Assembly: GCA_003576975.1 (NCBI GenBank)
Contig: QEVD01000083.1
Coordinates: 1 to 38,761, forward strand
DNA from: Candidatus Zhuqueibacterota bacterium
GTDB lineage: Bacteria > Zhuqueibacterota > Zhuqueibacteria > Zhuqueibacterales > Zhuqueibacteraceae
Direction of reading: 5' to 3'
Length of the DNA stretch: 38,761 nt
Shown: positions 1,791-24,510 of the stretch, piece after piece
How positions within the stretch are numbered: the first letter of the stretch is position 1
How the letters are laid out: each line of letters begins with the position of its first letter
Translations under genes and position numbers: made by a program
The notes under the pieces: generated by a model
Told to the model about the DNA's origin: nothing
Databases searched by the model: none
What the model saw: the letters and a program-made list of their open reading frames with translations, nothing else

Positions 1791-4583
1791 ATGAGTCAAA
1801 ACTACGAACACGAGTCGCTTTCTTCCACCGCTTTGCTCACCACCAAGCTCTTTCTCCCAGCGGCGCGCACGGATTTGGTTCGACGTTCTCGTTTAACCGA
1901 ACGGCTGAATCAGAATCTCCAACTCAAGCTTACGCTTATCTCCGCGCCTGCCGGATTTGGCAAAACTACTCTGTTGGGTGAATGGATTCCCGCCAGCCCG
2001 CGCTGTGTCACGTGGGTCTCGCTGGATAAAGGCGACAACGATGCAATGCGCTTCTGGAGCTACGTTATCGCCAGCCTGCAATTGCTGCGCAACGATCTGG
2101 GCAAAAAGACGCAGGCTTTGCTCAATTCTCCGCACCCGCCCACATTTGAGATCATACTTACCAGCTTGGCCAATGAGATCAACGCATTCCCCGAAGCTTT
2201 TGCGCTTGTGCTCGATGATTATCATCTCATCGAAGCCCAACCGATTCATGCGGGCCTTGCGTTGTTGTTCGAACACTTGCCGCGCAACATGCATGTGATC
2301 ATCACCAGCCGCGCTGACCCGCCGTTGCCGCTGCCGCGTTTGCGCGCCCGGCGCGAGATGATGGAATTGCGCGCCCACGATTTGCGTTTTACGCTTGCCG
2401 AATCGACCACCTTTCTCAATGAGATCATGAAGATTGGCCTCGCGGAAAAAGACATTGCCGCATTGGATCATCGCACCGAGGGCTGGATCGCCGGCTTGCA
2501 ATTGGCCGCACTGTCGCTGCAAGGCCGCGACGACGTTTCCGCTTTCATCAAGGCTTTCACCGGCGACGACCGCTATATTTTGGATTATCTCATCGAAGAA
2601 GTCTTTCGCCGCCAACCGGAGCCTATTCAAGACTTTCTACTGCAAACTTCGATTCTCGAGCGGCTGTGCGGTCCGCTGTGCGACGCGGTTCTGAATGCGG
2701 ATTGGGGATGGCAGATTGCGGATGAAGAAAATGGAACCCGCAATCAACAATCCGAAATCCGCAATTCACAGGCCATGCTCGAGCATCTCGAGCGCGCCAA
2801 TCTTTTCATCGTCCCGCTGGACGACAAGCGGCAATGGTATCGTTATCATCATCTGTTTGCCGATCTGCTGCGGTTCCGTTTGCAACAGCAAAAAAGCGGG
2901 ACGAGGCGAGAGTTGCACTTGCGCGCGAGCCTTTGGCACGAGCAAAACGGTTTGTTCTCCCAGGCGATTGATCACGCGCTGGCCGCGGAAGAGTGGTCAC
3001 GAGCCGCAGACATGATCGAGCGCTTGATGCTGATGCCGATGTTTAGACAAGGCCGGTACGCCACATTGCAGGTTTGGCTGGAGAAACTGCCGGAAAGCGA
3101 ATTGCAAACCAAGCCCGATCTTTGTTTCTGGTATGCGTGGGCTTTGTTGATCTCCGACCGGCGCGAAGAATATGAGCAACCGTTGCGCTTGGCCGAGCGG
3201 GCATGGCAATCGCAGGCCAACACGCACAAGCTGGCGCAGATTCACGTGATTCGCGGCATGGAGGTTTATTTCAAGGCGCAGGCGCAAGAAACGATTGCGC
3301 TCGCGCAAAGCGCGCTGCGTGATCTTGCCGAGGATGATCGCTTCAATCGCGGCATCGCCTATTTGCTCTTGGGCGGTGGTTATAGCTTGGCCGGCAAAGT
3401 TGCTGAGGCAACAACGGCGCTGCTCGCCGCATGCGCCAACAGTCGGGAAACCGGCGATCTCAGCATCGAGCTGGCGGCGACGGAAGAATTGGGCTACGTG
3501 CAAATGCTGCAAGGAAAACTGTGCGATGCCGTTAAAACTTATCAAGACGTGCTCCGGCGCCATGACAATCGTTTTCACAATCAGGCGATTCGCGCCAATA
3601 TCGGCATGGGCGTGATTCACCGCGCATGGAATGATTTGGAAGCGTCGCGGCGCTATCTGGCTAGCGCTTTGGAGATTGATCGGCAAACGGGCTTCGGAAA
3701 AAAGTGGCCGTGGCTTCACGTTGAAAATAGCCGGACGCTCGCACTAACCGGCGAAATGGAATCCGCGGTTGCGGAGATGAATCGCGCCATCGAACTTGGC
3801 GAGCAAGCCGGCAATCACCGCATTGTTCGCGAAGCGCGCGCCTATCTTGCTCGTTTTGCATTGGCGCAGGGGAATTTAATCGCGGTGGAAAAATGGCTCG
3901 CGCAATGCAAGGTGCGGGATGATAACGATATTCATGAAGGCCTTGAGGTTGAGTATCTCACGCAGGCGCGCTGCCTGTTCAGCCAGGACGAATATGCGGC
4001 GGCTGTGAGTTTGTTGCAACGCTTGCGACAAGCCGCGGAAACCGATGGCAGAATGAGCAGCGTGGTGGAATGCCTCACGCTCGAGGCGCTTGCCCTGCAC
4101 GCGCAGCGCCAAGTGGAACCGGCTTGCAGTTGTCTTGCCAAAGCGCTGGCGCTGGCTGAACCTGAAGGCTTTGTGCGCGTGTTTGTGGAGGAGGGCGCGC
4201 CCATGGCGGAATTGCTGCGGCAATTTCTCAGAGCGCAGCAAAAAGGAAATTCTCCCGGCGCCAACCAGCTCTTGCAGAGCTATGCGATCAAGCTGCTCGC
4301 CGAATTTCCACCGGAGCAGGTGCCGGCGGCGATTCAGACCCATAAAACCGCAACAGGCTTGCCGGCCTCTTATCTCGTCGATCCGTTGAGCGAGCGCGAA
4401 TTGGAAATTTTGAGGCTTGTGGCCGAAGGCTTCTCCAACCAGGAGATCGGCCGCAAGCTTTTTATAGCCACCAGCACGGTGAAACGGCACATCAACAACA
4501 TCTACGCGAAACTTGATGTACATAACCGCACGCAGGCGGTGGCGAAGGGGAAGGAGCTGAGGATACTCGGCGAGAGCGAATAA
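1791..4583 (+). CDS. MalT-like LuxR-family STAND regulator, copy 1
   Basis: Large ATP-dependent transcriptional regulator of the MalT type, 930 residues from ATG 1791; a TTG start 21 bases upstream is possible, but the second copy begins at the equivalent position, which favours 1791. The Walker A motif is APAGFGKTT (about 52-60), Walker B is ALVLDDYH, and the sensor-like segment is VIITSRADPPLPLPRLRARR. A long helical TPR-like middle region follows. The C-terminal about 65 residues are a LuxR helix-turn-helix (LSERELEILRLVAEGFSNQEIG, TSTVKRHINNIYAKL). Family knowledge: such proteins bind ATP and an inducer, oligomerise and activate promoters with direct repeats. The inducer is unknown. Its stop is only 20 bases from the next gene, so the two are probably one operon. 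No convincing Shine-Dalgarno is seen. Confidence 0.9.
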   Translation: MSQNYEHESLSSTALLTTKLFLPAARTDLVRRSRLTERLNQNLQLKLTLISAPAGFGKTTLLGEWIPASPRCVTWVSLDKGDNDAMRFWSYVIASLQLLRNDLGKKTQALLNSPHPPTFEIILTSLANEINAFPEAFALVLDDYHLIEAQPIHAGLALLFEHLPRNMHVIITSRADPPLPLPRLRARREMMELRAHDLRFTLAESTTFLNEIMKIGLAEKDIAALDHRTEGWIAGLQLAALSLQGRDDVSAFIKAFTGDDRYILDYLIEEVFRRQPEPIQDFLLQTSILERLCGPLCDAVLNADWGWQIADEENGTRNQQSEIRNSQAMLEHLERANLFIVPLDDKRQWYRYHHLFADLLRFRLQQQKSGTRRELHLRASLWHEQNGLFSQAIDHALAAEEWSRAADMIERLMLMPMFRQGRYATLQVWLEKLPESELQTKPDLCFWYAWALLISDRREEYEQPLRLAERAWQSQANTHKLAQIHVIRGMEVYFKAQAQETIALAQSALRDLAEDDRFNRGIAYLLLGGGYSLAGKVAEATTALLAACANSRETGDLSIELAATEELGYVQMLQGKLCDAVKTYQDVLRRHDNRFHNQAIRANIGMGVIHRAWNDLEASRRYLASALEIDRQTGFGKKWPWLHVENSRTLALTGEMESAVAEMNRAIELGEQAGNHRIVREARAYLARFALAQGNLIAVEKWLAQCKVRDDNDIHEGLEVEYLTQARCLFSQDEYAAAVSLLQRLRQAAETDGRMSSVVECLTLEALALHAQRQVEPACSCLAKALALAEPEGFVRVFVEEGAPMAELLRQFLRAQQKGNSPGANQLLQSYAIKLLAEFPPEQVPAAIQTHKTATGLPASYLVDPLSERELEILRLVAEGFSNQEIGRKLFIATSTVKRHINNIYAKLDVHNRTQAVAKGKELRILGESE

Positions 4584-4603
4584 AACACAAAAGTCGCCAG
4601 CGT

Positions 4604-7375
4604 ATGAGCGAAACCATCTCACCACCCGCCTTACTCACCACCAAATTTTTTCTACCGCCGGCCCGTTCTGACCTGGTGCGGCGCCCGCGTTTGACCGAAC
4701 GCCTCAATGAGGGTTTGCAGCGCCAGCTCACGCTCATCTCCGCGCCCGCCGGATTCGGAAAAACCACTTTGTTGGGTGAATGGATTCCCGCCAGCCCGCG
4801 CTGCGTCACCTGGGTCTCGCTGGATAAGGATGATAACGATGCAGTGCGCTTTTGGACGTACGTCGCGGCGGCGTTGCAAATGCTGCGCAGCGATCTCGGA
4901 AAGAATACCCGGGATTTGCTAAATTCTCCCCAACCGCCAACCTTCGAAACGATACTCACCAGCCTGGTCAACGAAATTGCTGCCTTTCCCGATGTTTTTG
5001 CGCTTGTGCTCGACGATTATCACGTCATAGAATCATCACCGATTCACGACGCCCTTGCGTTTTTGCTCGAGCATCTGCCGCGCAACATGCACGTGATCAT
5101 CACCAGCCGCGCCGATCCCGCGCTGCCGCTGGCGCGTTTGCGCGCCCGGCGCGAGATGACGGAATTGCGCGCGCAAGACTTGCGTTTCACGCTCGCCGAA
5201 TCAACCGCTTTTCTCAATGAAGTCATGAAAATTGGCATCGCGGAAAAAGACGTTGCAGCGTTGGATCATCGCACCGAAGGCTGGATTGCCGGCTTGCAAC
5301 TCGCCGCACTGTCAATGCATGGCCGCGACGATGTTTCCGCTTTCATTCAAGCTTTCACCGGCGACGACCGCTACATTTTGGATTATCTCATCGAAGAAGT
5401 CTTCCGGCGCCAGCCCGAGTACATTCAAAATTTTCTGCTGCAAACTTCGATTCTCGAGCGCTTGTGCGGTCCGCTGTGCAGCACGGTTTTGAATGCGGAT
5501 TTCGGATGGCAAATTGCGGAGGCTGAAAATGAAAACCGCAATCCGCAATCTCAAATCCGCAATGCACAGGCCATGCTCGAGCATCTCGAGCGCGCTAATC
5601 TCTTCATTATTCCTCTCGACGATAAGCGGCAATGGTATCGCTATCACCATTTGTTTGCCGAGTTGCTGCGTTTCCGGCTGCAACAATCCCAACCGGAAGC
5701 CGTCGCGGAGTTGCATTACCGCGCCAGCATTTGGTTCGAGAGCAACGATTTGATGGAAGAAGCCATCGAACACGCGATTGCCGCCAAAGATTGGGATCGC
5801 GCCGCGGGCTTGATCGAAACCGTGGCGTTGAAAATGCTGGCGCGCTGGCAGCAAGGCAGTTTGTTGAACTGGATCAAATTTCTTCCCGATCAGGCTTTTG
5901 AAAAGCGGCCGAATCTCTGTCTTTGGTCCGCCTATCTGGCGATTCACACTGCAAATTATGATTCCTGCGAACCGTACTTGCAAAAGGCGGAACAGGCTTG
6001 GCAGCGTGACCCGCACGATCAAAAACTTTGCGCGGTATGGACGGCGCGCGCCTTCTTGGCATATTTTCGCGGAAATGCCGCCGGAGTATTGGAGTCCGCT
6101 CAACAAGCTGTTGCCCTTGCGCATCCCGACAATGCCCGGGAACAGGCACAGAGTCGCATGGTTTTGGCGCTTGGCTCACTGCTGAAAGGATTCATCGCTG
6201 AGGCGCAAGAAGGTTTTGAGAAAGCCCTCCTTGCCAGCGAGGAGGCCGGCGACGACATCACTTATTTGGGTTCGTGCGCGTGGTTGGGATTTGTGCATGC
6301 TGCCCAGGGCCGGCTGCAGGACGCCACGACGATTCTGCATCACGCCGTGTCGCCCAAGAGCCGGGAATTTCCCCGGGCCGCGCTGATGGCACACAGCATT
6401 CTTTGTGATCTCGAGGACGAACGGAACAACGCGGCCGCTGCCGAGGCCCATCTGCGCGTATGCGTCGATATCGATCAACGCAGCAAAAGAAGTTGGGTGC
6501 TCATCTCAGAAGGATTGCGGGCGTTGGTGCGGATGCTTTATAAGCGCGGAGACAAAAAAGAAGCTCTGAATCTCATTGCTCACCAACAGACACTGGCCCA
6601 AAAGCATCGTAATAAGACCACAATCCAGCAGATGCGAGCACTTCATGCGCAACTGTGCTTGTGGGAGAAAGATCTCGTTGCCGCCGCGCGTTGGGCAGAG
6701 GTGAGTCATTTGGCAAGCGATGCGGATTTCTCTTTTGGCCGCGAGATCGAGTATCTCACTTTCGTTCGCGTGCTCTTTGCGCAAGCGCGGTACGATGAGG
6801 CGATCACCTTGCTTAGACGGCTTCAACGCACGCTCGAGGCCGATGGAAGGAGGCGATGTTTAGTGGAGGTTTCAGTGCTACAGGCTCTTGCACATAAAAA
6901 CCTTGGACAGACACAGCAGGCCACATATGCTCTCGAACGCGCTCTCAATCTCGCCGAGCCGGAAGGCTACCTCCGCACGTTTGTAGATGAAGGCGCGCCG
7001 ATGGTGGAGTTGCTGCGGCAATTCATGCGAGATCAGCAGAAAGCGAGTCAAGCCGAATCGAGCCGCGTTTTGCAGAATTACGCAATGAAATTGCTCGCTG
7101 CATTTCCATCGGAGTTGGTGTCGGCAGCGATTCAAACTCATAAAACCTCAGCCGCATTGCCGGCTTCCTATTTGGTCGATCCGCTCAGCGAACGTGAATT
7201 GGAAGTCTTGAAACTCATTGCCAACGGCTTATCCAATCCCGAAATCGCCCGCAAGCTTTTTGTGGCGACCAGCACGGTGAAACGGCACGTCAACAACATC
7301 TACGCGAAGCTTGATGTACATAACCGCACGCAGGCCGTGGCAAAGGGGAGGGAGCTTGGACTTTTGGCTGGATAA
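4604..7375 (+). CDS. MalT-like LuxR-family STAND regulator, copy 2
   Basis: A 923-residue paralogue of the preceding gene. Walker A is APAGFGKTT (about 47-55), Walker B ALVLDDYH, and the C-terminal LuxR helix-turn-helix contains LSERELEVLKLIANGLSNPEIA and TSTVKRHVNNIYAKL. The ATPase and DNA-binding parts are nearly identical to copy 1 at protein and largely at DNA level, while the TPR-like sensor region (about residues 400-750) is strongly diverged. I infer that both regulators recognise similar DNA sites but different signals. It follows copy 1 by 20 bases and ends upstream of a nested palindrome (7431-7502). It immediately precedes the group of genes that share the TACACC promoter module, so it is a candidate regulator of them. 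Confidence 0.9.
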   Translation: MSETISPPALLTTKFFLPPARSDLVRRPRLTERLNEGLQRQLTLISAPAGFGKTTLLGEWIPASPRCVTWVSLDKDDNDAVRFWTYVAAALQMLRSDLGKNTRDLLNSPQPPTFETILTSLVNEIAAFPDVFALVLDDYHVIESSPIHDALAFLLEHLPRNMHVIITSRADPALPLARLRARREMTELRAQDLRFTLAESTAFLNEVMKIGIAEKDVAALDHRTEGWIAGLQLAALSMHGRDDVSAFIQAFTGDDRYILDYLIEEVFRRQPEYIQNFLLQTSILERLCGPLCSTVLNADFGWQIAEAENENRNPQSQIRNAQAMLEHLERANLFIIPLDDKRQWYRYHHLFAELLRFRLQQSQPEAVAELHYRASIWFESNDLMEEAIEHAIAAKDWDRAAGLIETVALKMLARWQQGSLLNWIKFLPDQAFEKRPNLCLWSAYLAIHTANYDSCEPYLQKAEQAWQRDPHDQKLCAVWTARAFLAYFRGNAAGVLESAQQAVALAHPDNAREQAQSRMVLALGSLLKGFIAEAQEGFEKALLASEEAGDDITYLGSCAWLGFVHAAQGRLQDATTILHHAVSPKSREFPRAALMAHSILCDLEDERNNAAAAEAHLRVCVDIDQRSKRSWVLISEGLRALVRMLYKRGDKKEALNLIAHQQTLAQKHRNKTTIQQMRALHAQLCLWEKDLVAAARWAEVSHLASDADFSFGREIEYLTFVRVLFAQARYDEAITLLRRLQRTLEADGRRRCLVEVSVLQALAHKNLGQTQQATYALERALNLAEPEGYLRTFVDEGAPMVELLRQFMRDQQKASQAESSRVLQNYAMKLLAAFPSELVSAAIQTHKTSAALPASYLVDPLSERELEVLKLIANGLSNPEIARKLFVATSTVKRHVNNIYAKLDVHNRTQAVAKGRELGLLAG

Positions 7376-7430
7376 ACACATTATGTGGATTAGGACGTCA
7401 AAGGTAGAATAAAATTCCAAATTCTTATCA

Positions 7431-7502
7431 CCAACGGATAGATTAAGACCAACGGACGAAAAGACAAAAAGCTTTATCCGTTGGCGTTAATCTATCCGTT
7501 GG
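7431..7502. repeat. Nested perfect palindrome downstream of the regulator pair
   Basis: The outer arms 7431-7446 (CCAACGGATAGATTAA) and 7487-7502 are perfect 16-base reverse complements. Inside them 7449-7456 (CCAACGGA) and 7477-7484 (TCCGTTGG) form a second perfect 8-base stem. The loop is about 20 bases and A-rich. The word CCAACGGA or its complement thus occurs four times. In RNA this would give a very stable long hairpin; it may act as a terminator or mRNA-stabilising structure although no T-tract follows, or it may be a mobile palindromic repeat. Confidence 0.85.
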
Positions 7503-7627
7503 AGCCGCCTGGGGCTGCAGTTTTCAGCTTGGCTAAAATTTGGCGTAAAATTTTCAAGCATTGAGGAAGTCTTGATGCTAATTTAAATTCTCCATCTCCG
7601 ATTTCCCCTCCCGATTCACCTCCAAAA

Positions 7628-7671
7628 TCCACCCCTCGGCTCATGCTGCTACACCCCTGTCGGCGTATATT
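7628..7671 (+). promoter_or_regulatory. Shared promoter module, copy A
   Basis: Box 1 TCCACC (7628-7633), a conserved CTCGGCTCATGCTGC-like core, box 2 TACACC (7650-7655) exactly 22 bases after box 1, and a -10-like TATATT (7666-7671). The similarity to copy C continues past the -10 (TTGAT-type, then AATTGATTC). It is the most diverged of the five copies. It lies about 100 bases before the ATG at 7773. Confidence 0.65.
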
Positions 7672-7772
7672 GATCATGTAAATTGATTCGTTCTGCAACG
7701 CGTCGCCGAGTTGAACTCGCATCGCGTGCAAGCTCGGCGGCGCAAACCCCACAAATTGAAAGAAGACTCATT

Positions 7773-8203
7773 ATGCAAGCCATCAAACGCTGGTTTGGCT
7801 GGACCGCGGTCATCGGGCCGATTCACATGTGTGAGCAGCTTCTCTTCGGCCTCGACGAGGTTGATGAGCTGAAAGGCTTTGCCGAAAGCTACTACTCTTT
7901 ATTCAGCAATCCAGATTATGGCACCGTGTTGCTGGTCACATTCTCATTCAGCCTGATCAATTTGATCGTGTGCGGCCTGTTGAAGGGTGGCCGGTCGCGG
8001 CTCGCAGCCATGTTTTTTTTGCGCTGGTCGCAGTCGGCGAGATGCACCACCTCATCAAAACGATCGTTCATGCCTCCTACGACATCGGCGCAACAACGGC
8101 GATTCCATTTGTGATGTTCGGCGTGCTGCTCTCCCGCGAATTGGTGAGAGAGTTTCGCAAAACTTCTGCGCCCATTGTGGAAGCGGCGTTTCAACAAGCA
8201 TGA
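7773..8203 (+). pseudogene. Small integral membrane protein, frame interrupted at a T8 run
   Basis: ATG 7773 is preceded by a GAAAGAAG Shine-Dalgarno. The first frame encodes MQAIKRWFGWTAVIGPIHM..., a protein with at least two hydrophobic segments, through SRLAAMFF. At the run of eight T (8013-8020) the hydrophobic, helical sequence continues in the -1 frame as FALVAVGEMHHLIKTIVHAS and runs to TGA 8201-8203, giving about 143 residues in all. The 0-frame reads T TTT TTG at the junction, a classic slippery heptamer, so this may be a programmed -1 frameshift, a phase-variable tract, a sequencing error or a true pseudogene. I do not recognise the family; the EMHHLIKTIVHASYD segment has two His near a membrane helix. 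It carries promoter copy A upstream. Confidence 0.6.
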
Positions 8204-8445
8204 ACAACCTCACCCAATGCGATGAAGCCGGCGTATTCCTCCTCGCCGCTTTTTTGCAGGGCAAGTTCTTTCGCTTCAAAGTCGAGGCCTTTGATGAAGC
8301 CGATTCAATTGCGAGGACGAGCACTTGCGGGCAGTCATAAACACGGAGCGTTTGTTGGCCGGCGCTGCGCGACGCAAGGCTTGAGAGAGGCATGCGGCTT
8401 GTGCAGCAGTATAGATCCCAAAAGAATCGCAGTACACGCGCAAAT
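8204..8445. other. Intergenic region with a possible reverse-strand gene remnant
   Basis: No forward gene is supported before promoter copy B. On the reverse strand, 8197-8312 reads, without a start codon, as an acidic helical peptide including LDFEAKELALQKSGEEEY and AGFIALGEVVHA. It has protein-like composition but no recognisable family and stops on both sides, so it may be a decayed gene. Confidence 0.3.
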
Positions 8446-8490
8446 TACACCCTTCGGCGCAAGCCGCTACACCCTTCCGTTGCGTATCTT
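8446..8490 (+). promoter_or_regulatory. Shared promoter module, copy B
   Basis: Box 1 TACACC (8446-8451), core CTTCGGCGCAAGCCGC, box 2 TACACC (8468-8473, 22-base period), and TATCTT (8485-8490) followed by GATC. It lies about 105 bases upstream of the membrane protein gene at 8596. Confidence 0.75.
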
Positions 8491-8595
8491 GATCTCGTCA
8501 ATTGCTTCAATCAACGGCACGAGGCCGAACTTGCGCTTACGATTTGATAAACCACCGCGCGCGAGTTCGGCTTCAAAATCTATCAAAGAAAAACT

Positions 8596-9069
8596 ATGAT
8601 GAAGGCACAAGAAACTCTGTATGGGCTTTACTCACACAAGCCGTCTATCCTGTCGGCCATCGCAGCAGCGTTCAGCCGTATGGCAAAACCGGCGGTGTTG
8701 ATCACGTTGGGCGTCGGCGTGTATCTGCATGTCACGCGTTTGTTCATTGGCGCCGAGTTGCTCATCGAACACATTTACACGGCAACATTCGATGTCGTAT
8801 TTGCTCTCCCCATGTTGGCCGGCGCCATCGGCATCTTGACGGCTTGGAAGCATATCGTTTTTCGAAACCGGTTTGAGAAAGGAATTACCGCGGTGACCGG
8901 CGCGTACTTTTGGGTGAGCGTGCCATTGCACGTCCAAACTTGGCTCTCGCAGAGTACGGACTACATCTTGATTTTCCCGAAGTGGTACAGCCTCGTTTTT
9001 TTGGTTTATTCTTCACTGCTAATGCTGGTTTGGCAGCGGTTAAAAATTGTAACCGAAAGGCGATCTTAA
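8596..9069 (+). CDS. Small polytopic membrane protein of unknown family
   Basis: This gene encodes 157 residues (156 if the second ATG at 8599 is used). The translation has about four hydrophobic segments, near residues 33-53, 65-82, 98-112 and 125-145, joined by short charged loops; His residues occur at the first and third segments (YLHVTRLFIGAE, VPLHVQTWL). The upstream AAAGAAA is only a weak ribosome binding site. I cannot assign a family. The size, the membrane character and the identical promoter module suggest it acts with the interrupted membrane protein at 7773 in the same inner-membrane process. A role in the efflux regulon is only inference. Confidence 0.75.
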   Translation: MMKAQETLYGLYSHKPSILSAIAAAFSRMAKPAVLITLGVGVYLHVTRLFIGAELLIEHIYTATFDVVFALPMLAGAIGILTAWKHIVFRNRFEKGITAVTGAYFWVSVPLHVQTWLSQSTDYILIFPKWYSLVFLVYSSLLMLVWQRLKIVTERRS

Positions 9070-9072
9070 AAT

Positions 9073-9117
9073 TACACCCTTCGGTGCATGACGCTACACC
9101 TGTTCATCTCGTATCTT
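9073..9117 (+). promoter_or_regulatory. Shared promoter module, copy C
   Basis: Box 1 TACACC (9073-9078), core CTTCGGTGCATGACGC, box 2 TACACC (9095-9100), TATCTT (9112-9117). The TGACGC at 9089-9094 sits 17 bases before the -10-like hexamer, so it could be the -35 element. It lies about 97 bases upstream of the lipoprotein start at 9214. Confidence 0.8.
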
Positions 9118-9213
9118 GACCCCGTTAATTGATTCAATCATTCACGCGAAGCCGGATGTGTACACGCACTACACGAATCCGGCTTCATAACCTCTCACAT
9201 GAAAGGAAGTTTT

Positions 9214-9765
9214 ATGAAAACTGCAGTTCTGTTTTTGACGCTTGTTGCTTTGGCGCTGGCCCTCGGCTGTTCTCCCGTGAACATCAAGCATGACTATGAC
9301 ACGGACGCCAACTTCGAGGCGCTGAAAACTTATAGCTGGATGTCGGCGCCAACCAACGCAACGGGCAGCGTGCAAGCCGCTCTGCAGCGCAACAGCTTGA
9401 TGGATAAACGCATCAAAGAATCCGTTGACCGTTACTTGGCCGCCAAAGGATATGCGACAAACACCGATAGTCCGGACTTCTTGGTTCTGTATCATGTCGG
9501 CGCGCAAGACAAGATCAACGTCACGGATTGGGGCTATGGCTACGGACGTTATGGCCGTTGGTATGGCGGCCGCGGCGTCGAGGTTCATCAATACCAAGAA
9601 GGAACGTTGATACTCGACATCATCGCAGCCGAGTCCAGGCAGTTGGTGTGGCGCGGCTTTGCAGCAGGCACGATTGATCCGCATGCTTCCCTCGAAACGC
9701 GCAAGCGCAAACTCGATGAAGTCATTGCCAAAGTTCTTGCGGAGTTTCCGCCGACAACGAAGTGA
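9214..9765 (+). CDS. DUF4136-domain lipoprotein
   Basis: I chose ATG 9214 because AAAGGAAG lies just before it and the product begins MKTAVLFLTL with a lipobox LALGC; an ATG at 9199 is in frame but overlaps this ribosome binding site. The mature 165-residue part has the DUF4136 pattern: a FEALKTYSW strand, a central Tyr/Gly-rich stretch (WGYGYGRYGRWYGG), a GTLILDIIAAESRQLVWRG segment and a conserved C-terminal helix KLDEVIAKVLAEFPP. It would be anchored in the periplasm or outer membrane. The molecular function of DUF4136 proteins is not established; they often occur near envelope stress or transport genes. It carries promoter copy C upstream. Confidence 0.9.
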   Translation: MKTAVLFLTLVALALALGCSPVNIKHDYDTDANFEALKTYSWMSAPTNATGSVQAALQRNSLMDKRIKESVDRYLAAKGYATNTDSPDFLVLYHVGAQDKINVTDWGYGYGRYGRWYGGRGVEVHQYQEGTLILDIIAAESRQLVWRGFAAGTIDPHASLETRKRKLDEVIAKVLAEFPPTTK

Positions 9766-9798
9766 GGGATTGGACGACGGGGCATTTCATGCGCAAAA

Positions 9799-9843
9799 TA
9801 CACCTTTCGGTGCATGACGCTACACCCGCCCGTTTTGTATATT
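9799..9843 (+). promoter_or_regulatory. Shared promoter module, copy D
   Basis: Box 1 TACACC (9799-9804), core TTTCGGTGCATGACGC, box 2 TACACC (9821-9826), TATATT (9838-9843). From box 1 through box 2 it differs from copy C at a single base. It lies 48 bases before ATG 9892. Confidence 0.8.
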
Positions 9844-9891
9844 TTGCGCGTGAACTTTTGGAAGATGCCGATTCATTTAGTGAGAATTACT

Positions 9892-10125
9892 ATGAAGCAG
9901 AATTACACACAGGAAGTTTACCAAATCCGCGTGCAAGGCCGCCTGGATTCAAACTGGTCCGCTTGGTTTGATGATATGACTTTGGCGTTCGAGAATGGCG
10001 TGACAACCATTTCCGGCGTCGTGGCAGATCAAGCTGCGCTGCACGGCCTGCTCGCGAAAGTGCGCGATCTCGGCCTCACGTTGATCGATGTGCATCGCGT
10101 TGAAGCGGAAAATAAACAAGAATAG
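9892..10125 (+). CDS. Small conserved soluble protein (77 aa)
   Basis: Starts at ATG 9892; frames beginning further upstream would read through promoter copy D. The product contains YQIRVQGRLDSNWSAWFDDM, a turn with ENGVTTISG, and VADQAALHGLLAKVRDLGLTLIDV. I recognise this as a widespread family of about 75-residue proteins found in Chloroflexi, Actinobacteria and others, where they are annotated as hypothetical. The predicted fold is alternating beta strands with one C-terminal helix, and there is no signal peptide or membrane segment, so it is cytoplasmic. The function is unknown. Being in the TACACC-promoter group, it may be a regulatory or ligand-binding partner of the regulon, which is inference. 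Confidence 0.85.
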   Translation: MKQNYTQEVYQIRVQGRLDSNWSAWFDDMTLAFENGVTTISGVVADQAALHGLLAKVRDLGLTLIDVHRVEAENKQE

Positions 10126-10249
10126 GTTGAAAGAATAGAAGCGCTGACAGAAAGTTGTATGACAGAAAAATGGAGCTTCTATCAAAACAAAGACACGCTA
10201 TAAAATTTTTTTACCATACATTTTTCGGTCAATAGAACGGAGAAAAAAT

Positions 10250-12643
10250 ATGACCTCGACATTCAAATCTCTCACCATATTGCTGACCGTTTTCTGCTTC
10301 ATCATACCGGCAGCGGCGCAGAATCCCACGATCCACGTCGGTGTCATTCTCGACGGGCCCTCGGAGCGCAACGCGGTGAGGCAGCGAGAATTTCAAAAGC
10401 AGATCACCGAGTTTTTCAACAGTGAATACGACGTGCGTTTCACGCCGGAAAATACGCTGGAAGGGGATTGGACCGCCGCCGGCGTCAAAGCTGCGGTGGA
10501 TCGCCTGCTCGCCGACAAGGACGTGGAGTTTATTCTGGCGCTCGGCCCGATCAGTTCGAATGAAATCGCGCTGCGCAAGAATTTGCCGAAACCGGTAATT
10601 GCCGGTGCCGTGATCGATGCGAAGTTGCAAAATTTTCCGACGAAAGACGGCGCCAGCGGCGTGAAGAACCTCAACTATCTCGACGAGGCTTATTCCGTCA
10701 CGCGCACCATCAAAGCGTTTCAAGAAGTCGTTCCGTTCAAGAAGCTCGTGGTTTTGCACAACCCCGGCATACTTACTGCGATTCCGCAATTGCGCGAGCG
10801 CGCGCAGCAAGAAGTGCAAGCGTTAGGCGCGCGATTAGAATTTGTGCCGGTGACGACTTCCGCAGCAACTGCCTTGCAAGCTCTTCCCGCTGACGCGGAT
10901 GCGGTCTACATTTCACCTTTGCTCCAAATTCCCGAGAAGGAGTTCGATATACTCGTGGCTGGTATCAATCAACGACGGTTGCCCAGCTTTTCATATCTTG
11001 GCAAAGCCGAAGTGGAAAAGGGCGTGCTGGCCTCTTATGCGCCGACTGATGATGTCACGCGGCGCGCGCGGCGAATCGCAAGCAACATGCAGCGTATTCT
11101 CCGCGGCGAAGAGGCGGGCAGCATTCCGGTGGATTTTTCGACTGCGCCGCAGCTCATCATCAATATGGCCACCGCGGCCGCGATTGATTTTTATCCCAAC
11201 TGGAAAGCGTTGACCGAAGCAGAATTGCTCAATCAAGAAGAAATAAAAACCGGACGAACGCTTTCACTGGCAACGAGCGCACGCGAAGCCGTGCGCGTGA
11301 ATCTCGATTTGAGAGTCGCCAACAAAGAAGTTGAATCCGGCAAGTATGAAGTGAAGAAGGCGCGCGCGAATTTATTGCCGCAAGTTGAGGCTTCGGCAAC
11401 GGGAGTCTTGATCAAAAAAGAAACTGCCGAGGCGAGCTTCGGGCAACAAGCCGAACGTCAAATCGACGGCGCGCTCACTTTTTCACAAGTGCTTTACTCC
11501 GAATCGGCGCACGCGAATTTTTCCATTCAAAAGCATTTGCAAGCTGCGCGCGAAGATGATCGCCGTAGCGTTGAGCTTGACATTGCTTTGGAGGCGGCGA
11601 CGGCATATTTGAACGTATTGCGCGCAAAGGCGTTGTCGCGCATTCAACGTGGCAATCTGAAACTCACTGTGTCAAATCTCGAACTCGCGCGCTTGCGCGA
11701 AAGCGTTGGCGCTTCGGGCCGCTCGGATGTTTATCGCTGGGAAAGTGAAGTGGCGACGAGCCGTAAGAATCTCATCGACGCCGACGCGCAAGTCGAAGTG
11801 GTCAAAATAGAAATGAATCGCGTGTTGAACCGGCCGCTCGAAGAGCAATTTGCAACGGAAGAAACCGCGATTGATGACCCGATTCTCCTCACCGGTGATA
11901 AAAAGATTTTTGCTTATCTCGATAACCCGCGCACCTTCGGTGTTTTCCGCGATTTCATGGTGCAAGAAGGCGTGAATGCCGCGCCGGAATTGCGGCAACT
12001 CGACGCCGCCATCGCGGCACAACGGCGCGCAAAAACTGCAACGAGCCGTGCGTTTTGGATGCCGACCGTTGCCTTGCAGGCGAAAGTGAGCAACGTCTTC
12101 TCGCGCAGCGGCGCCGGCTCGGAAGGATTTCAGCCTCCGCCCTCGATTCCACTGTCTTTTCCTTCTGCGCAAGATTTGAATTGGAACGTCGGGGTGCAAC
12201 TCGCGCTGCCGCTGTTCACGGGTTTGAATCGGATTGCTGAAAACGAGCAGGCGCGCGTGGAGTTGGATCGGCTGGCGTTGGAACGCGACGCGGCGCAGTT
12301 GGCGATCAGCCAACGCATTCGTTCCGCGATGCACGTTGCCGGCGCTTCGCACGCGGGCATCGAGCAAGCACGCACCGCTGCCGAAGCCGCGCGCAAAAAT
12401 TTGGAATTGGTGACCGATGCATATCGCAGCGGCGCGGTGTCCATCATCACGCTGATCGACGCGCAAAACTCCGCGTTGATCTCGGAGCAAGCTGCGGCAA
12501 GCGCAGTGTATGATTTCATGCTCGATCTCATGAACGTCGAGCGCGCCGTCGGGCAGTTTCATTTCTTCAGAACGGAACCAGAGCGGCAAGCGTACTTCAA
12601 CCGGCTGGAGGAGTTTTATCGCAAGGCGGGGATTCGTTTGTAG
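10250..12643 (+). CDS. Fusion of ABC-type substrate-binding domain and TolC-like outer membrane efflux protein
   Basis: 797 residues. A signal peptide (about 1-23, ending AAAQ) is followed by an ABC substrate-binding domain of the PF04392 type (about 27-310; VGVILDGPSERN, LALGPISSNEIAL, VYISPLLQIP, LASYAPTDDVTRRARR). From about 335 to 790 the protein is a TolC-family channel, with two heptad-rich coiled-coil halves (AREAVRVNLDLRVANKEVES; AAEAARKNLELVTDAYRSGA) and a SIITLIDAQNSAL segment. TolC proteins are normally about 420-480 residues, so the N-terminal domain is an addition. It presumably sits in the outer membrane with the binding domain in the periplasm, and would serve as the outer channel of the RND system encoded downstream. 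It does not carry the TACACC module; its immediate upstream region is AT-rich. Confidence 0.9.
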   Translation: MTSTFKSLTILLTVFCFIIPAAAQNPTIHVGVILDGPSERNAVRQREFQKQITEFFNSEYDVRFTPENTLEGDWTAAGVKAAVDRLLADKDVEFILALGPISSNEIALRKNLPKPVIAGAVIDAKLQNFPTKDGASGVKNLNYLDEAYSVTRTIKAFQEVVPFKKLVVLHNPGILTAIPQLRERAQQEVQALGARLEFVPVTTSAATALQALPADADAVYISPLLQIPEKEFDILVAGINQRRLPSFSYLGKAEVEKGVLASYAPTDDVTRRARRIASNMQRILRGEEAGSIPVDFSTAPQLIINMATAAAIDFYPNWKALTEAELLNQEEIKTGRTLSLATSAREAVRVNLDLRVANKEVESGKYEVKKARANLLPQVEASATGVLIKKETAEASFGQQAERQIDGALTFSQVLYSESAHANFSIQKHLQAAREDDRRSVELDIALEAATAYLNVLRAKALSRIQRGNLKLTVSNLELARLRESVGASGRSDVYRWESEVATSRKNLIDADAQVEVVKIEMNRVLNRPLEEQFATEETAIDDPILLTGDKKIFAYLDNPRTFGVFRDFMVQEGVNAAPELRQLDAAIAAQRRAKTATSRAFWMPTVALQAKVSNVFSRSGAGSEGFQPPPSIPLSFPSAQDLNWNVGVQLALPLFTGLNRIAENEQARVELDRLALERDAAQLAISQRIRSAMHVAGASHAGIEQARTAAEAARKNLELVTDAYRSGAVSIITLIDAQNSALISEQAAASAVYDFMLDLMNVERAVGQFHFFRTEPERQAYFNRLEEFYRKAGIRL

Positions 12644-12649
12644 TAAAAG

Positions 12650-12758
12650 TTTGTAGTAGCGCCTTCAGGCACAAAGGCGCCGTGTGAACGCAAAAGCTCG
12701 TTACAATTGAAATATGATTTAGCTTTCGAAACTCGATGCCTAAAGGCATTACTACGAA
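12650..12758. repeat. Imperfect palindromic intergenic element (GTAGTA...GCCTT.AGGC family)
   Basis: The arm 12650-12671 (TTTGTAGTAGCGCCTTCAGG...) matches the reverse complement of 12737-12758 at about 18 of 22 positions. The element fills most of the gap between the TolC fusion and the monooxygenase. It includes the in-frame ATG at 12736, which therefore is not the monooxygenase start. A related palindrome lies at 29616-29695. Confidence 0.7.
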
Positions 12759-12801
12759 CGATAATGCACTTCATCACCTTAACCGCAAGGAGAGACTTGT
12801 T

Positions 12802-13995
12802 ATGGCAAACAATTTTTCTGTAAATGGAAAAAGCACCGACGTGCTGATCGTCGGCGCAGGCCCAACCGGACTGGCGCTGGCGACGATGCTCATGCGCTCC
12901 GGCATAACGCCGGTGATTGTGGACAAACTTGCGACAGGCCAGAACACTTCGCGCGCTGCGGTGATTCATTCTCACACGCTGGAAGTGTTGGAGCAGCTCG
13001 GCGTATCTGAGCGGCTCGCGAACCAGGGCCTCAAGCTTGCCAAATTCAGCATCCGTGATCGCGATCGGGTTTTGGTGCGGCTGCGCTTTGACAAGCTCCC
13101 AACGGCATACAACTGCCTGCTGATGCTGACGCAGGATAAGACGGAGAAAATTTTGGCCGCTGGACTTGCAGAGGCCAAAGGCGCCGTGCGCTGGGGCTGT
13201 GCTGTGGAATCGTTGATCGAAACAGCAGAGGGGGTGCAAGCGACCATCGTCTCGAGCGAGGGCAGACAGACGATTCACGCGCGGTATGTGATCGGCGCCG
13301 ACGGCATGCACAGTTTGGTGCGGCAAACGGCGGGGATTGGATTTACCGGCGACACTTACGAAGAGTCTTTTGTTCTTGCCGACGTGGATATGAATTGGGA
13401 TCACGGTCGTGACGAGGTAATGCTGTTTTTTTCGCCGGCAGGTTTGGTCGTCGTTGCGCCGTTACCTGGCGGCAGATATCGTATCGTCGCCACGCTCGAC
13501 AACGCTCCGCAGGAACCAGGGTTAGCCGACATTCAAGCGCTGCTCGACGAACGCGGTCCGACACACGGCACCGCAAAAGTTCTGTATGTGCATTGGGGCT
13601 CCCGCTTCCGTTTGCATCATCGGGTGGCCGATCAATACCGTCGCGGGCGTTTTCTGCTCATGGGTGATGCCGCGCACGTGCATAGTCCGGCCGGCGGGCA
13701 AGGCATGAACACGGGTCTGGTGGATGCTTGCGTGCTCGGACGCATTTTAAGCGAGGTGATTTCGAAGCGCAAAGACGAGAGCCACCTCGATAAGTATGAA
13801 ACGTTGCGGCGGCCGGCGGCCAAGCAAGTGCTGCAACTCACCGAACGATTGACCGAGATGGCGACCATGAAAAGCGCGCCGAAGCGATTCATGAGAAATA
13901 TCGTTCTTCGGACGATCGGCCTCTCTCCGATTTTTCGGCGCCGTTTGGAAATGAATCTTTCCGGCTTGAGCCGCCGCGCCGCTGCGGAGTTGTAA
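12802..13995 (+). CDS. FAD-dependent monooxygenase (PheA/TfdB, PHBH-like)
   Basis: 397 residues from ATG 12802, preceded by a strong AAGGAGAGA; the upstream ATG at 12736 lies inside a palindromic repeat. The N-terminal Rossmann motif is VLIVGAGPTGLAL (GxGxxG about 18-23), the middle DG motif is VIGADGMHSLVR, and the GD motif is LLMGDAAHVHSPAGGQGMN near residue 290. These are the three fingerprints of class A flavoprotein hydroxylases, which use NAD(P)H and O2 to hydroxylate aromatic or polyketide-like compounds. The C-terminal thioredoxin-like domain of phenol hydroxylases is absent. The gene sits between the efflux outer channel and adaptor genes, so a role in modifying a toxic aromatic compound before export is plausible but unproven. 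Confidence 0.88.
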   Translation: MANNFSVNGKSTDVLIVGAGPTGLALATMLMRSGITPVIVDKLATGQNTSRAAVIHSHTLEVLEQLGVSERLANQGLKLAKFSIRDRDRVLVRLRFDKLPTAYNCLLMLTQDKTEKILAAGLAEAKGAVRWGCAVESLIETAEGVQATIVSSEGRQTIHARYVIGADGMHSLVRQTAGIGFTGDTYEESFVLADVDMNWDHGRDEVMLFFSPAGLVVVAPLPGGRYRIVATLDNAPQEPGLADIQALLDERGPTHGTAKVLYVHWGSRFRLHHRVADQYRRGRFLLMGDAAHVHSPAGGQGMNTGLVDACVLGRILSEVISKRKDESHLDKYETLRRPAAKQVLQLTERLTEMATMKSAPKRFMRNIVLRTIGLSPIFRRRLEMNLSGLSRRAAAEL

Positions 13996-14041
13996 GCTCA
14001 AAATGTTCACAGCGAATGGCCATTGACAATTGCCTCGTAAT

Positions 14042-14086
14042 TACACCTTTCGGTGCATGACGCTGCACCCAATCATTCGTTATATT
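14042..14086 (+). promoter_or_regulatory. Shared promoter module, copy E
   Basis: Box 1 TACACC (14042-14047), core TTTCGGTGCATGACGC, box 2 TGCACC (14064-14069), TATATT (14081-14086) then GATCATG, as in copy A. It lies about 60 bases before the RND adaptor start at 14148, which ties the efflux genes to the same control. Confidence 0.8.
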
Positions 14087-14147: not shown

Positions 14148-15220
14148 ATGAGAGCTTCGAAGGTTCTCAATCTTATTTGCGTTGCGGCCATGACGTTAGC
14201 TGCTTGCAGCAAGCATGAAGAGCGCATCGCGCAGCCGACACCCGTGACGGTGTGGACGGTTGCGAACACGGCAGGTGAGAATGGCCTGCGTTACTCCGCC
14301 AACATCAAGTGCAGGTTGATCTCGCGTTCAAAGCCAGCGGCTATGTCGAAGAGATCTTTCAAGTGACCGGAGTTGATGGCCGGCGGCGCAACGTGCAGGA
14401 AGGCGATTTCATCAAGAAAGGAACGGTAATGGCCCGTGTACGGGCCAATGAATATCGCGACCGCGTCGCCGAGGCGCAAGCGGCGCTCACTAAAGCCAAG
14501 TCGGATTTCGATCGCGCTGCCAAGCTGTTCGAAAATCAATCCGTTTCCAAAGCGGATTATGACGCAGCTTACGCCGGCTACACTTCTGCGCAAGCGCGCT
14601 ACGATCAAGCGGCGCAAGCGCTGCGAGATTGCGCGTTGCAAGCACCAATGGACGGCTTCGTGTTGCGCAGAAACGTCGAAGTGGGAACGTTGGCTGCCCT
14701 CGGCATGCCCGGATTCGTACTCGCTGACACGCGCGCCGTCAAAGCCGTCTTCGGCGTGCCGGACATGATCGTCGGCCAAATGAAAATGGGCGACTTTCAA
14801 ACCGTCACCACCGAAGCCATTCCCGGCGTGGAATTTCGCGGGCGCGTCACGCGCATCGCGCCTTCGGCTGATCCGAATAGCCGTGTCTTCGAGGTGGAGT
14901 GCACGATTCCGAATCCGGACAATCGCCTCAAAGCCGGCATGATCGCCGCACTGAAAATTGCAGCGCAAGCATCGTCTCCGTCGGTCCTGTTATTGCCGCT
15001 GAATGCGATCGTGCGCCCGCGCCATGATCCGAAAGGCTACGCGGTTTTTGTCGTGGAAGAATCAAATGGCAAATCCACCGCGCGAGAGAGAAAAATAAAT
15101 TTGGGAGACGTGGTCGGAAACTCGATTTCAGTGAATGCAGGATTGCAAGGCGGGGAAAAAGTGATCGTCAGAGGCGCGACGCTGGTGGTGGATTCGCAGG
15201 AAGTGAGGATTATTCCGTAA
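14148..15220 (+). pseudogene. RND efflux periplasmic adaptor (HlyD/AcrA family), frameshifted
   Basis: ATG 14148 has a GGAGA eight bases upstream. The first about 50 codons encode a lipoprotein signal (MRASKVLNLICVAAMTLAAC) and the start of the adaptor (PVTVWTVANTAGENGLRYSA). Near 14300-14309 the frame changes: the continuation QVDLAFKASGYVEEIFQVTG is in a different frame and runs to 15220. This second part has the lipoyl-like and coiled-coil segments (RVAEAQAALTKAKSDFDRAA), the beta-barrel (VEFRGRVTRIAPSADPNSRV) and the membrane-proximal domain. The expected linker between RYSA and QVDL is short or missing, so one base (or one plus whole codons) was lost. It may be a real pseudogene or a sequence error. 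Normally this protein bridges the RND pump and the TolC channel. Confidence 0.8.
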
Positions 15221-15251: not shown

Positions 15252-15533
15252 TCAAACAAGCTGAATTTTTAGACGTTTTCCCAATACTGCGGCAGCACGT
15301 TCTAAAGTATGCAAAGTGACAGAGCCATTTTGAGGATCGAGCAAACGATCGAGCGCTGCGCGGCTGGTTTGCATACGCTTCGCCAGCGTGGCTTTGGAAA
15401 TGTTGTGACTTTTCATGATTTGGGCGAGCTGAAAAGCAATGACTCGTTTTACGGCTACGGCTTCAGCTTCTGCGAGCAAGCCTTCTTCTTCAAGAAACTT
15501 GTCAAAATTGCTGCCGAGGTTTTTTTTGCTCAT
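15252..15533 (-). CDS. Xre/HTH antitoxin of a HigBA-like module
   Basis: 93 residues. ATG at 15533 is preceded by AGGAGA and overlaps the toxin stop in an ATGA, so the two genes are translationally coupled. A helix-turn-helix is visible in IMKSHNISKATLAKRMQTS followed by RAALDRLLDPQNGSVTLHTL, the usual Xre-type pattern where the second helix binds DNA. The N-terminal part is acidic and helical. Gene order toxin-then-antitoxin is that of the HigBA class. The protein would neutralise the toxin and repress the shared promoter. It is encoded on the strand opposite to the efflux genes, between the adaptor and the pump. Confidence 0.88.
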   Translation of the reverse strand: MSKKNLGSNFDKFLEEEGLLAEAEAVAVKRVIAFQLAQIMKSHNISKATLAKRMQTSRAALDRLLDPQNGSVTLHTLERAAAVLGKRLKIQLV

Positions 15534-15898
15534 TGATTTCTCCTGAGAGTTGACAATCGCTTTCTTGCAAGGCTCAGATCAGTCGGCGGCATTTTTTGAG
15601 ATTTCTTGATAAAGCCGTGCAAGAGCACCATAACGTTCTGATGAACCGTAAAGAGCACACGAGCAATCCGATTGTCCAAATCGGATCGAATTTCCCAAAG
15701 CCCGGTTTCGATTTTTCGAACCAGAGGCATTCCCAATGGCCAGCCAAACTGCACAGTCTTGATGTCTTCGCCAATGACCTTCTCTTCAGCTCGTGGCAGG
15801 CTTCGCAGCCATTCTCGAACAGGTTCCCTTCCGGAATCGGTTCGATAAAAAACGACCTGTAATCGTAGGTGATCCTTTATTTGAATGCAGTGTACCAA
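15530..15898 (-). CDS. HigB/Gp49-family (RelE superfamily) toxin
   Basis: Up to 122 residues from a TTG at 15898. It shows the phage-derived Gp49-like HigB pattern (PF05973): VVFYRTDSGREPVREWL, a central GLWEIRSDLDNRIARVLF strand pair, VMVLLHGFIKKSQKMPP and a C-terminal ARKRL helix. Such toxins cleave mRNA on ribosomes. The start is uncertain. The good promoter at 15889-15917 would start transcription near 15882, inside the first codons, and AAAGGA at 15873-15878 lies before a CTA codon (15868-15866), exactly where related proteins begin (xRLQVVFYRTDSG). The native ATG may have been lost, which would inactivate or weaken the toxin. Confidence 0.82.
   Translation of the reverse strand: MVHCIQIKDHLRLQVVFYRTDSGREPVREWLRSLPRAEEKVIGEDIKTVQFGWPLGMPLVRKIETGLWEIRSDLDNRIARVLFTVHQNVMVLLHGFIKKSQKMPPTDLSLARKRLSTLRRNQ

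Positions 15899-22293: not shown

Positions 22294-24510
<2,217 letters not shown>

Follow-up and report, generated by a model that had tools for sequence, protein, structure and literature searches.

The contig QEVD01000083.1 of a Candidatus Zhuqueibacterota bacterium raises the question of whether five similar promoter-like modules, each situated before a gene, are under the control of two MalT-like regulators encoded in tandem 5' of them. The stretch analysed, here termed the window, comprises 38,761 nucleotides (nt) of this contig. Comparison within and beyond the genome led us to regard each site as probably a promoter dependent on a MalT-like activator of the LAL family (STAND type), in this case regulator 1 and/or regulator 2. 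The modules all share one orientation and are listed with the letters of their half-site, inverted half-site, -35-like element, third half-site and -10 element (counterparts are given as locus and position):

7628..7671, + strand: site 1, TCCACC / GGCTCA / ATGCTG (-35-like) / TACACC / TATATT, before a small membrane-type gene; counterpart of the same variant at L015 9013, before the corresponding gene
8446..8490, + strand: site 2, TACACC / GGCGCA / AAGCCG / TACACC / TATCTT, before a 157-aa gene
9073..9117, + strand: site 3, TACACC / GGTGCA / ATGACG / TACACC / TATCTT, before a DUF4136 gene; counterparts at L013 10380 and L016 207
9799..9843, + strand: site 4, TACACC / GGTGCA / ATGACG / TACACC / TATATT, before a 77-aa gene; counterparts at L013 11402 and, with other letters, L055 16121
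14042..14086, + strand: site 5, TACACC / GGTGCA / ATGACG / TGCACC / TATATT, before an RND adaptor gene; counterparts at L014 2066 and L182 158

Expressed as the regular expression T-N-CACC, N16, T-R-CACC, N10/11, TATMTT, the module was found to match the + strand of the window exactly five times and the - strand not once (200 mononucleotide shuffles, mean of 0.0). This whole-pattern count ruled out a chance origin and confirmed the five positions named in the original prediction, an earlier annotation of this DNA. From 5' to 3', the module consists of the half-site TACACC, four bases, the inverted half-site GGTGCA, the -35-like ATGACG (overlapping the inverted half-site by one A), a single base, TACACC as a third half-site, 10-11 bases and TATMTT. 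Alignment of eleven sites (five from the window and six from relatives) gave the consensus ATTACACCCCCAAAATACACCCTTCGGTGCATGACGCTACACCC-n-CTCGTTGCTTATATTGATCATGTAAATTGATTCA, with the inverted half-site present in most of them and a further TACACC-like box situated 12-13 bases 5' of the module in several. The spacer between -35 and -10 measures 17 bases in site 1 and 18 in the other four, and the end of the -10 element was found to lie 101, 105, 96, 48 and 62 bases from the ATG for sites 1 to 5, respectively, in line with the 48-106 bases proposed earlier. The placing of TATMTT 16-17 bases past the second box is also right when counted start to start. The common core that had been described was exact (TTCGGTGCATGACGC) in three of the five sites (9073, 9799 and 14042), with site 8446 differing from it at three positions and site 7628 being a variant with six differences from the 28-base pattern. 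Taken alone, this 15-base core with up to three mismatches was not significant in the window (five matches against a shuffle mean of 2.36, with at least five in 10 of 100 shuffles). The earlier reading of a two-box site for a dimeric regulator was supported as regards a LuxR/MalT-type protein, the actual design being an inverted pair and a third half-site around the -35 element. The inverted half-site, the further TACACC-like boxes and the leader hairpins described below did not feature in that prediction.

The two regulator genes are situated 5' of site 1:

1791..4583, + strand: LAL regulator 1, 930 aa, with the Walker A motif APAGFGKT, TPR_MalT and GerE
4604..7375, + strand: LAL regulator 2, 923 aa, with a recognition helix resembling that of regulator 1

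Both products display the features of LAL proteins, namely a length of approximately 900 aa, an N-terminal Walker A domain, a MalT-type TPR and a C-terminal LuxR/GerE helix-turn-helix (HTH) domain. The Walker A motif was located at residue 52 of regulator 1 and residue 47 of regulator 2 (with AAA_16 matches below the curated cut-off), and TPR_MalT (178.7 and 165.2 bits) and GerE (73.5 and 72.7 bits) were identified above cut-off. With the NCBIfam MalT equivalog, scores of 449.4 and 445.3 bits fell short of the cut-off of 537, and the two are thus categorized as LAL proteins and not as MalT. Nor do the sites carry the MalT box letters GGA(T/G)GA / TCMTCC, the consensus of the eleven sites being TACACC...GGTGCA...TACACC. 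The recognition helices are near-identical (ATSTVKRH[IV]NNIYAKL in common), so that the same sites are probably read by both. A search of the source genome with regulator 2 identified twelve places: the two full-length window genes, C92 (an HTH remnant of 71 aa with a stop) and nine HTH-only matches in short open frames. The modules therefore adjoin the only two full-length LAL genes found in this genome. Close LAL proteins were found in the related genomes G004 (C942, C571), G006 (C14, C21) and G005 (C205), with the helix [AT]NSTVKRHINN or ATSTVKRHINN. Directly 3' of regulator 2, an element with inverted repeats was observed (7386-7555), of which many partial copies are present in the same-species genome G147, in G006 and in other family members.

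Searching of the source genome (G000; 7,248,468 bases in 776 contigs, 94% complete) with the 28-mer at up to three mismatches gave four matches, all in this cluster (control, 0), and the three-part pattern gave three, again all in this cluster (control, 0). A degenerate 28-mer at up to three mismatches recovered all five sites with one weak match elsewhere, the reversed control giving two. The genome-wide scan that had been proposed thus found the modules confined to the cluster, apart from one match at control level. With five alike copies lying within 6.4 kb, these sites could be viewed as a dispersed repeat, mobile or structural, whose position in front of genes is fortuitous. Such an origin is highly improbable, as the five share one orientation and a similar distance to the start codon, and are conserved before corresponding genes of other genera, and as matches in the rest of the 7.25 Mb do not exceed the control; this last result also ruled out a scatter of random positions within genes.

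Among 147 genomes scanned, a set that includes the source genome (G147 was scanned separately), matches were identified in three: the source genome, G004 and G006, the latter two being other genera of the same family. Their sites precede counterparts of the DUF4136, 77-aa, RND adaptor and site-1 genes and a pair of outer-membrane efflux protein (OEP) and HlyD genes, with an additional G006 site (four differences) before a pyridine-nucleotide oxidoreductase gene. The scan of related genomes suggested at the outset accordingly places the module before corresponding genes in two further genera. When the eight genomes of the family were considered (G000, G147 and G001-G006), the module was present in four (G000, G004, G006 and G147), and long MalT-like genes of at least 50% identity in three of those four; pattern scans found no credible site in G001, G002, G003 or G005. 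This co-occurrence supports the proposed tie between the modules and the tandem MalT-like genes. The exact 22-base front part of the module had no match in viral contigs.

The product of the 77-aa gene behind site 4 provided a wider comparison, with 178 relatives found; the counts that follow rest on the best 80 of these 178, each retrieved with at most 8 kb of flanking sequence to either side. These 80 are distributed over approximately ten phyla (Chloroflexi, Actinobacteria, Firmicutes, Cyanobacteria, Desulfobacterota, Aminicenantes, Spirochaetales, Phaeodactylibacter, Gracilibacteria and KSB1). A LAL gene was present inside the retrieved stretch at 67 of the 80 loci, and at 53 it ended within 500 bp 5' of the 77-aa homologue on the same strand. 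Five plasmid records with the family were found: on a Chlorohelix plasmid the small gene follows a LuxR-type gene and is itself followed by an MMPL transporter gene, on an Acaryochloris plasmid approximately 3.6 kb separate the end of the LuxR-type gene from the small gene 3' of it, and a Pseudomonas plasmid is unannotated. A PDB sequence search with the family gave nothing at E<=1.

The upstream regions of these genes were scored for the plan alone (a direct repeat at 21-23, an inverted copy and TA...T), irrespective of letters. A score of at least 14 was reached by 41 of the 80 upstream regions, compared to 42 of 960 windows drawn at random from these loci, and a score of at least 15 by 35 of 80 compared to 13 of 960. 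In a set enlarged by L055 and the window's five sites, 47 of 86 scored at least 14, against 24 of 430 shuffles. The same plan was observed in other letters at L084 (ATCACC(12)ATCACCA-GATG-TGGTGATGACCTTTCACCA-10-TATCCT) and L090 (TCCCCAC-AT-GTGGGGA-7-TCCCCAC-9-TATCGT). A second 77-aa gene of G006 (47% identical) is preceded by TACTCC-TTTC-GGGAGA-TGACAC-TACCCC-11-TATATT; the LAL protein encoded 9 kb away is a different one, which contains a cyclase domain and has the helix LGTVKIHLKHIY as opposed to TSTVKRHINNIY. At L055, a LAL protein of 1211 aa with an N-terminal adenylate/guanylate cyclase domain is encoded (3625-7260).

Forty of the 80 loci (those scoring at least 14, L058 excluded) were scanned for a second operator, with matches in ten, of which seven were counted as real (L059, L063, L067, L081, L113, L121 and L130); L071 and L098 were discarded as the same site read backwards, and L105 as being without the design. 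Six of the seven, all from Nocardioides, face the gene of an MMPL-type transporter, which is transcribed away from the LAL gene (the Pfam MMPL match was checked on L059, the other five being called by homology to its transporter), with the copy of L063 facing a DUF4386 membrane protein. The L059 transporter has homologues at 9 of the 80 loci, and the L063 protein at 11. Together these comparisons indicate that a pairing of regulator, switch and small protein recurs in distant lineages. The local regulon of the original prediction was therefore upheld for the source genome, the design itself being widespread elsewhere, and the adjacency and architecture counts add to the support for a link between module and MalT-like gene.

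Whether operator letters change together with the regulator was examined on 52 regulator/operator pairs (50 from loci where the LAL gene lies immediately 5', and the non-adjacent pairs of the window and G006:C47), taking operator similarity as the best 30-base similarity of the intergenic regions. The partial Mantel value for operator against recognition helix, given the LAL body, was 0.64, compared to a maximum of 0.19 among 1000 permutations (N=52). On removal of rows more than 60% alike (28 of 52 kept), the partial value was 0.45 compared to 0.20, and shuffled intergenic DNA gave 0.05-0.07; among pairs whose bodies are less than 35% identical, only a weak correlation was seen (0.20 and 0.26). 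Across 815 variable LAL columns, the top 11 and 16 of the top 20 were located in the HTH domain, led by 894, 893, 879, 896 and 878, the first two being residues of the recognition helix. After thinning (824 columns), the top 10 and 13 of the top 20 were again in the HTH domain.

These results also bear on the suggestion that the sites arose by duplication of a single promoter and serve another regulator, for instance of LytTR type, with the LAL genes being incidental. Proteins of that type bind direct repeats approximately 21-22 bp apart, and two-turn direct repeats would suit other families too; in addition, similarity between the sites continues beyond the -10 element (GATCATGTAAATTGATTC), as would be expected of duplicates, and G147 keeps a site where a LAL gene was not found. 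Such an explanation appears improbable, since the letters shift across phyla with the LAL recognition helix, the inverted half-site is conserved, and a LAL gene adjoins the small gene at most of the loci counted above.

Several observations weigh against control of the modules by LAL proteins. Of the 80 upstream regions, 39 scored below 14, including all loci of the VKGHN-helix class, the sites of which appear different on visual inspection. G147 (100% complete, 680 contigs) keeps one site before the adaptor gene, with three differences from the pattern, and a full-length LAL gene was not found in its broken assembly, which yielded an HTH remnant; the contig has 157 bases 5' of the site, so that a gap in the assembly may account for this. 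Decay of this site following loss of the regulator was considered and withdrawn, because window site 2 has as many differences and two of the three recur in a G006 site. In G005, the C-terminal part of a LAL protein with the same helix is encoded where a contig begins, and no site was found in that 9.6-kb contig or by pattern scans. The LAL copies of G006 closest to those of the window are broken in assembly, with open LAL genes there encoding 951 aa (C41) and 1211 aa (C47). A rule equating tyrosine 895 with a CCCC-type half-site failed, as Acaryochloris has histidine with that operator and L110 and L131 carry the tyrosine without it. Furthermore, no more than a few hundred bases separate the HTH-coding end from the operator in the majority of pairs, so that joint inheritance of one block of DNA could inflate the correlation. 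Exceptions to this linkage are the pairs of the window, at a distance of 2.4 kb, and of G006:C47, at 9 kb, and the best columns being those of the recognition helix, rather than the last residues, argues against the objection.

Regulation of the modules by LAL proteins is thus supported by comparison, and that it takes the form of activation is what we infer. The active regulator would be expected to oligomerise, with LuxR-type HTH domains placed on the inverted pair and the third half-site. If transcription starts 6-7 bases past TATMTT, the inverted pair TACACC-N4-GGTGCA would be situated at about -51 to -36 and the third half-site TACACC at about -29 to -24, flanking the weak -35-like ATGACG in a manner that would allow RNA polymerase to be recruited. 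The predicted outcome is co-expression of two small membrane-type proteins, the DUF4136 protein, the 77-aa protein (with the OEP fusion encoded behind it) and the RND adaptor.

The same arrangement could instead serve repression, with LAL regulators on half-sites around the -35 element blocking RNA polymerase until a signal is received. The third half-site does lie between -35 and -10, where repressors often bind, and the LAL-type regulator SCO6993 is described as repressing through the binding of palindromes (PMC9628970). The -35 elements of sites 1 (ATGCTG) and 2 (AAGCCG) are poor, which suggests a need for activation, and the MalT proteins of Escherichia coli and Actinoplanes are activators with sites overlapping -35. 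Repression is accordingly considered unlikely, if somewhat less so than a duplicated promoter under another regulator.

Activation by a LAL protein can be set beside several known systems. NarL is a response regulator, and the inverted heptamers two bases apart of its 7-2-7 sites would be matched by TACACCY-TT-CGGTGCA, the HTH presumably being of the same superfamily; the window module differs by its extra third half-site at 22 bp. In Actinoplanes sp. SE50/110, the MalT operator TCATCC-5 nt-GGATGA was found before 17 starts of one gene region that has two MalT-like genes, with the 3' end of the motif 34.4 +/- 1.0 bases from the start and with deletion and overexpression data (PMC7567727). The window resembles this system in its LAL regulators, inverted hexamer pair and two MalT-like genes in the region, and by arithmetic the 3' end of its palindrome would be at a similar distance (approximately 35 bases) from a start 6-7 bases past TATMTT. 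It differs in its letters (TACACC-4 nt-GGTGCA), in the third half-site past the -35-like element and in its targets, and the module is known from sequence. For E. coli and Klebsiella, the MalT box is GGGGA(T/G)GAGG (PMC7567727, PMC9628970), four MalT sites are present at malPp800, and E. coli MalT acts as an ATP-bound oligomer that is held back by inhibitor proteins (PMC10427625). Shared with these are the Walker A motif, MalT-type TPR and LuxR HTH, a site overlapping -35 and several sites per promoter; the sub-cut-off equivalog scores, other letters and inverted arrangement are dissimilarities, and no maltose genes were identified among the targets examined. TpdR, a LAL activator of Rhodococcus jostii TMP1, has direct and inverted repeats that overlap -35, with inverted 7-mers 4 nt apart (PMC6099782). 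It is thus also a LAL regulator of a promoter with both kinds of repeat at -35, differing in its 15-nt direct repeats 13 nt apart, its letters and its catabolic target.

The genes that follow the modules, together with the neighbouring pump gene, are:

7773..8203, + strand: small membrane-type gene (site 1), membrane nature read from sequence, with a frameshift near 8015-8021; intact relative at L015 9159-9599
8596..9069, + strand: 157-aa protein (site 2), no Pfam match, membrane nature read from sequence
9214..9765, + strand: DUF4136 protein (site 3), putative lipoprotein from its sequence
9892..10125, + strand: 77-aa protein (site 4), a widespread family with no Pfam or NCBIfam match above cut-off
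10250..12643, + strand: fusion of ABC_sub_bind and OEP, by domain matches
14149..15220, + strand: RND/HlyD-type adaptor gene (site 5), with a frameshift near 14309; intact in L014 and L182
15966..19559, + strand: AcrB-type RND pump (ACR_tran)

Neither the pieces of the site-1 gene nor its intact L015 relative had a match in Pfam. The frameshifts of this gene and of the adaptor gene, compared to their intact relatives, may reflect either assembly error or decay. The fusion gene, which is perhaps in an operon with the 77-aa gene, encodes an ABC substrate-binding-type domain and a TolC-type outer-membrane efflux domain in one protein, a pairing that is not known to be common. No copy of the module was found directly before the RND pump gene. 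Between adaptor and pump, a Cro/C1-type HTH gene and a Gp49-like gene resembling a toxin-antitoxin pair were identified on the - strand (15252-15898), with a comparable pair 3' of the adaptor in G004. A peroxidase-family protein (Pfam PF00141) of 726 aa is encoded at 22330-24510 of the same contig.

Three of the leaders that follow the modules were found to contain a hairpin:

7700..7743, + strand: leader hairpin of site 1
8521..8574, + strand: leader hairpin of site 2
9148..9186, + strand: leader hairpin of site 3

The hairpin also follows four sites of relatives, and across these seven leaders its ten pairs were 95.7% formed, a level reached by none of 500 shuffles. Six pairs were changed on both sides (3 of 500 shuffles), in nine cells (0 of 500). 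The pairing was taken from the fold of the site 3 leader and a slid control of an off-register first pairing that scored badly, so that these statistics, with the pairing being chosen from the same data, lean towards it. The hairpin is missing from the leaders of sites 4 and 5 and of two relatives' sites, which are short. Rfam gave no match in the window at gathering score, the leader hairpins not being a curated family.

As regards function, the window targets together with the MMPL and DUF4386 second targets make an export or envelope response the likeliest theme, and the cluster is probably an inducible response of this kind. Because E. coli MalT is restrained by inhibitor proteins, our guess is that the 77-aa protein may be a feedback partner of the regulator. 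On a broader scale, a widespread cassette can be tentatively proposed, although we judge it to be somewhat short of an even chance: a LAL/STAND activator with an adjacent target of 65-80 aa (at a guess, its partner in feedback or sensing), in many cases joined by an exporter or other membrane protein (RND, MMPL, DUF4386). The promoter would have a fixed grammar, and each lineage, from KSB1 to Actinomycetota, Chloroflexota and Bacillota, would have altered its letters to match changes in the regulator's recognition helix. A description of such a cassette was not found in the accessible text of the literature searched, literal operator strings included, which does not imply its absence from print.

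To our knowledge, operators are known for few LAL regulators, which have been termed a poorly studied family (PMC3282765). If the cassette exists as proposed, LAL operator specificity would be readable from sequence. Because the small gene recurs beside the regulator in many phyla, it supplies a collection of regulator/operator pairs from which sites and regulons of LAL proteins not yet studied can be predicted and put to experiment. In the source genome, a five-promoter regulon around an export system would be defined in this way, and a conserved protein family as yet without a name would be placed under LAL control.

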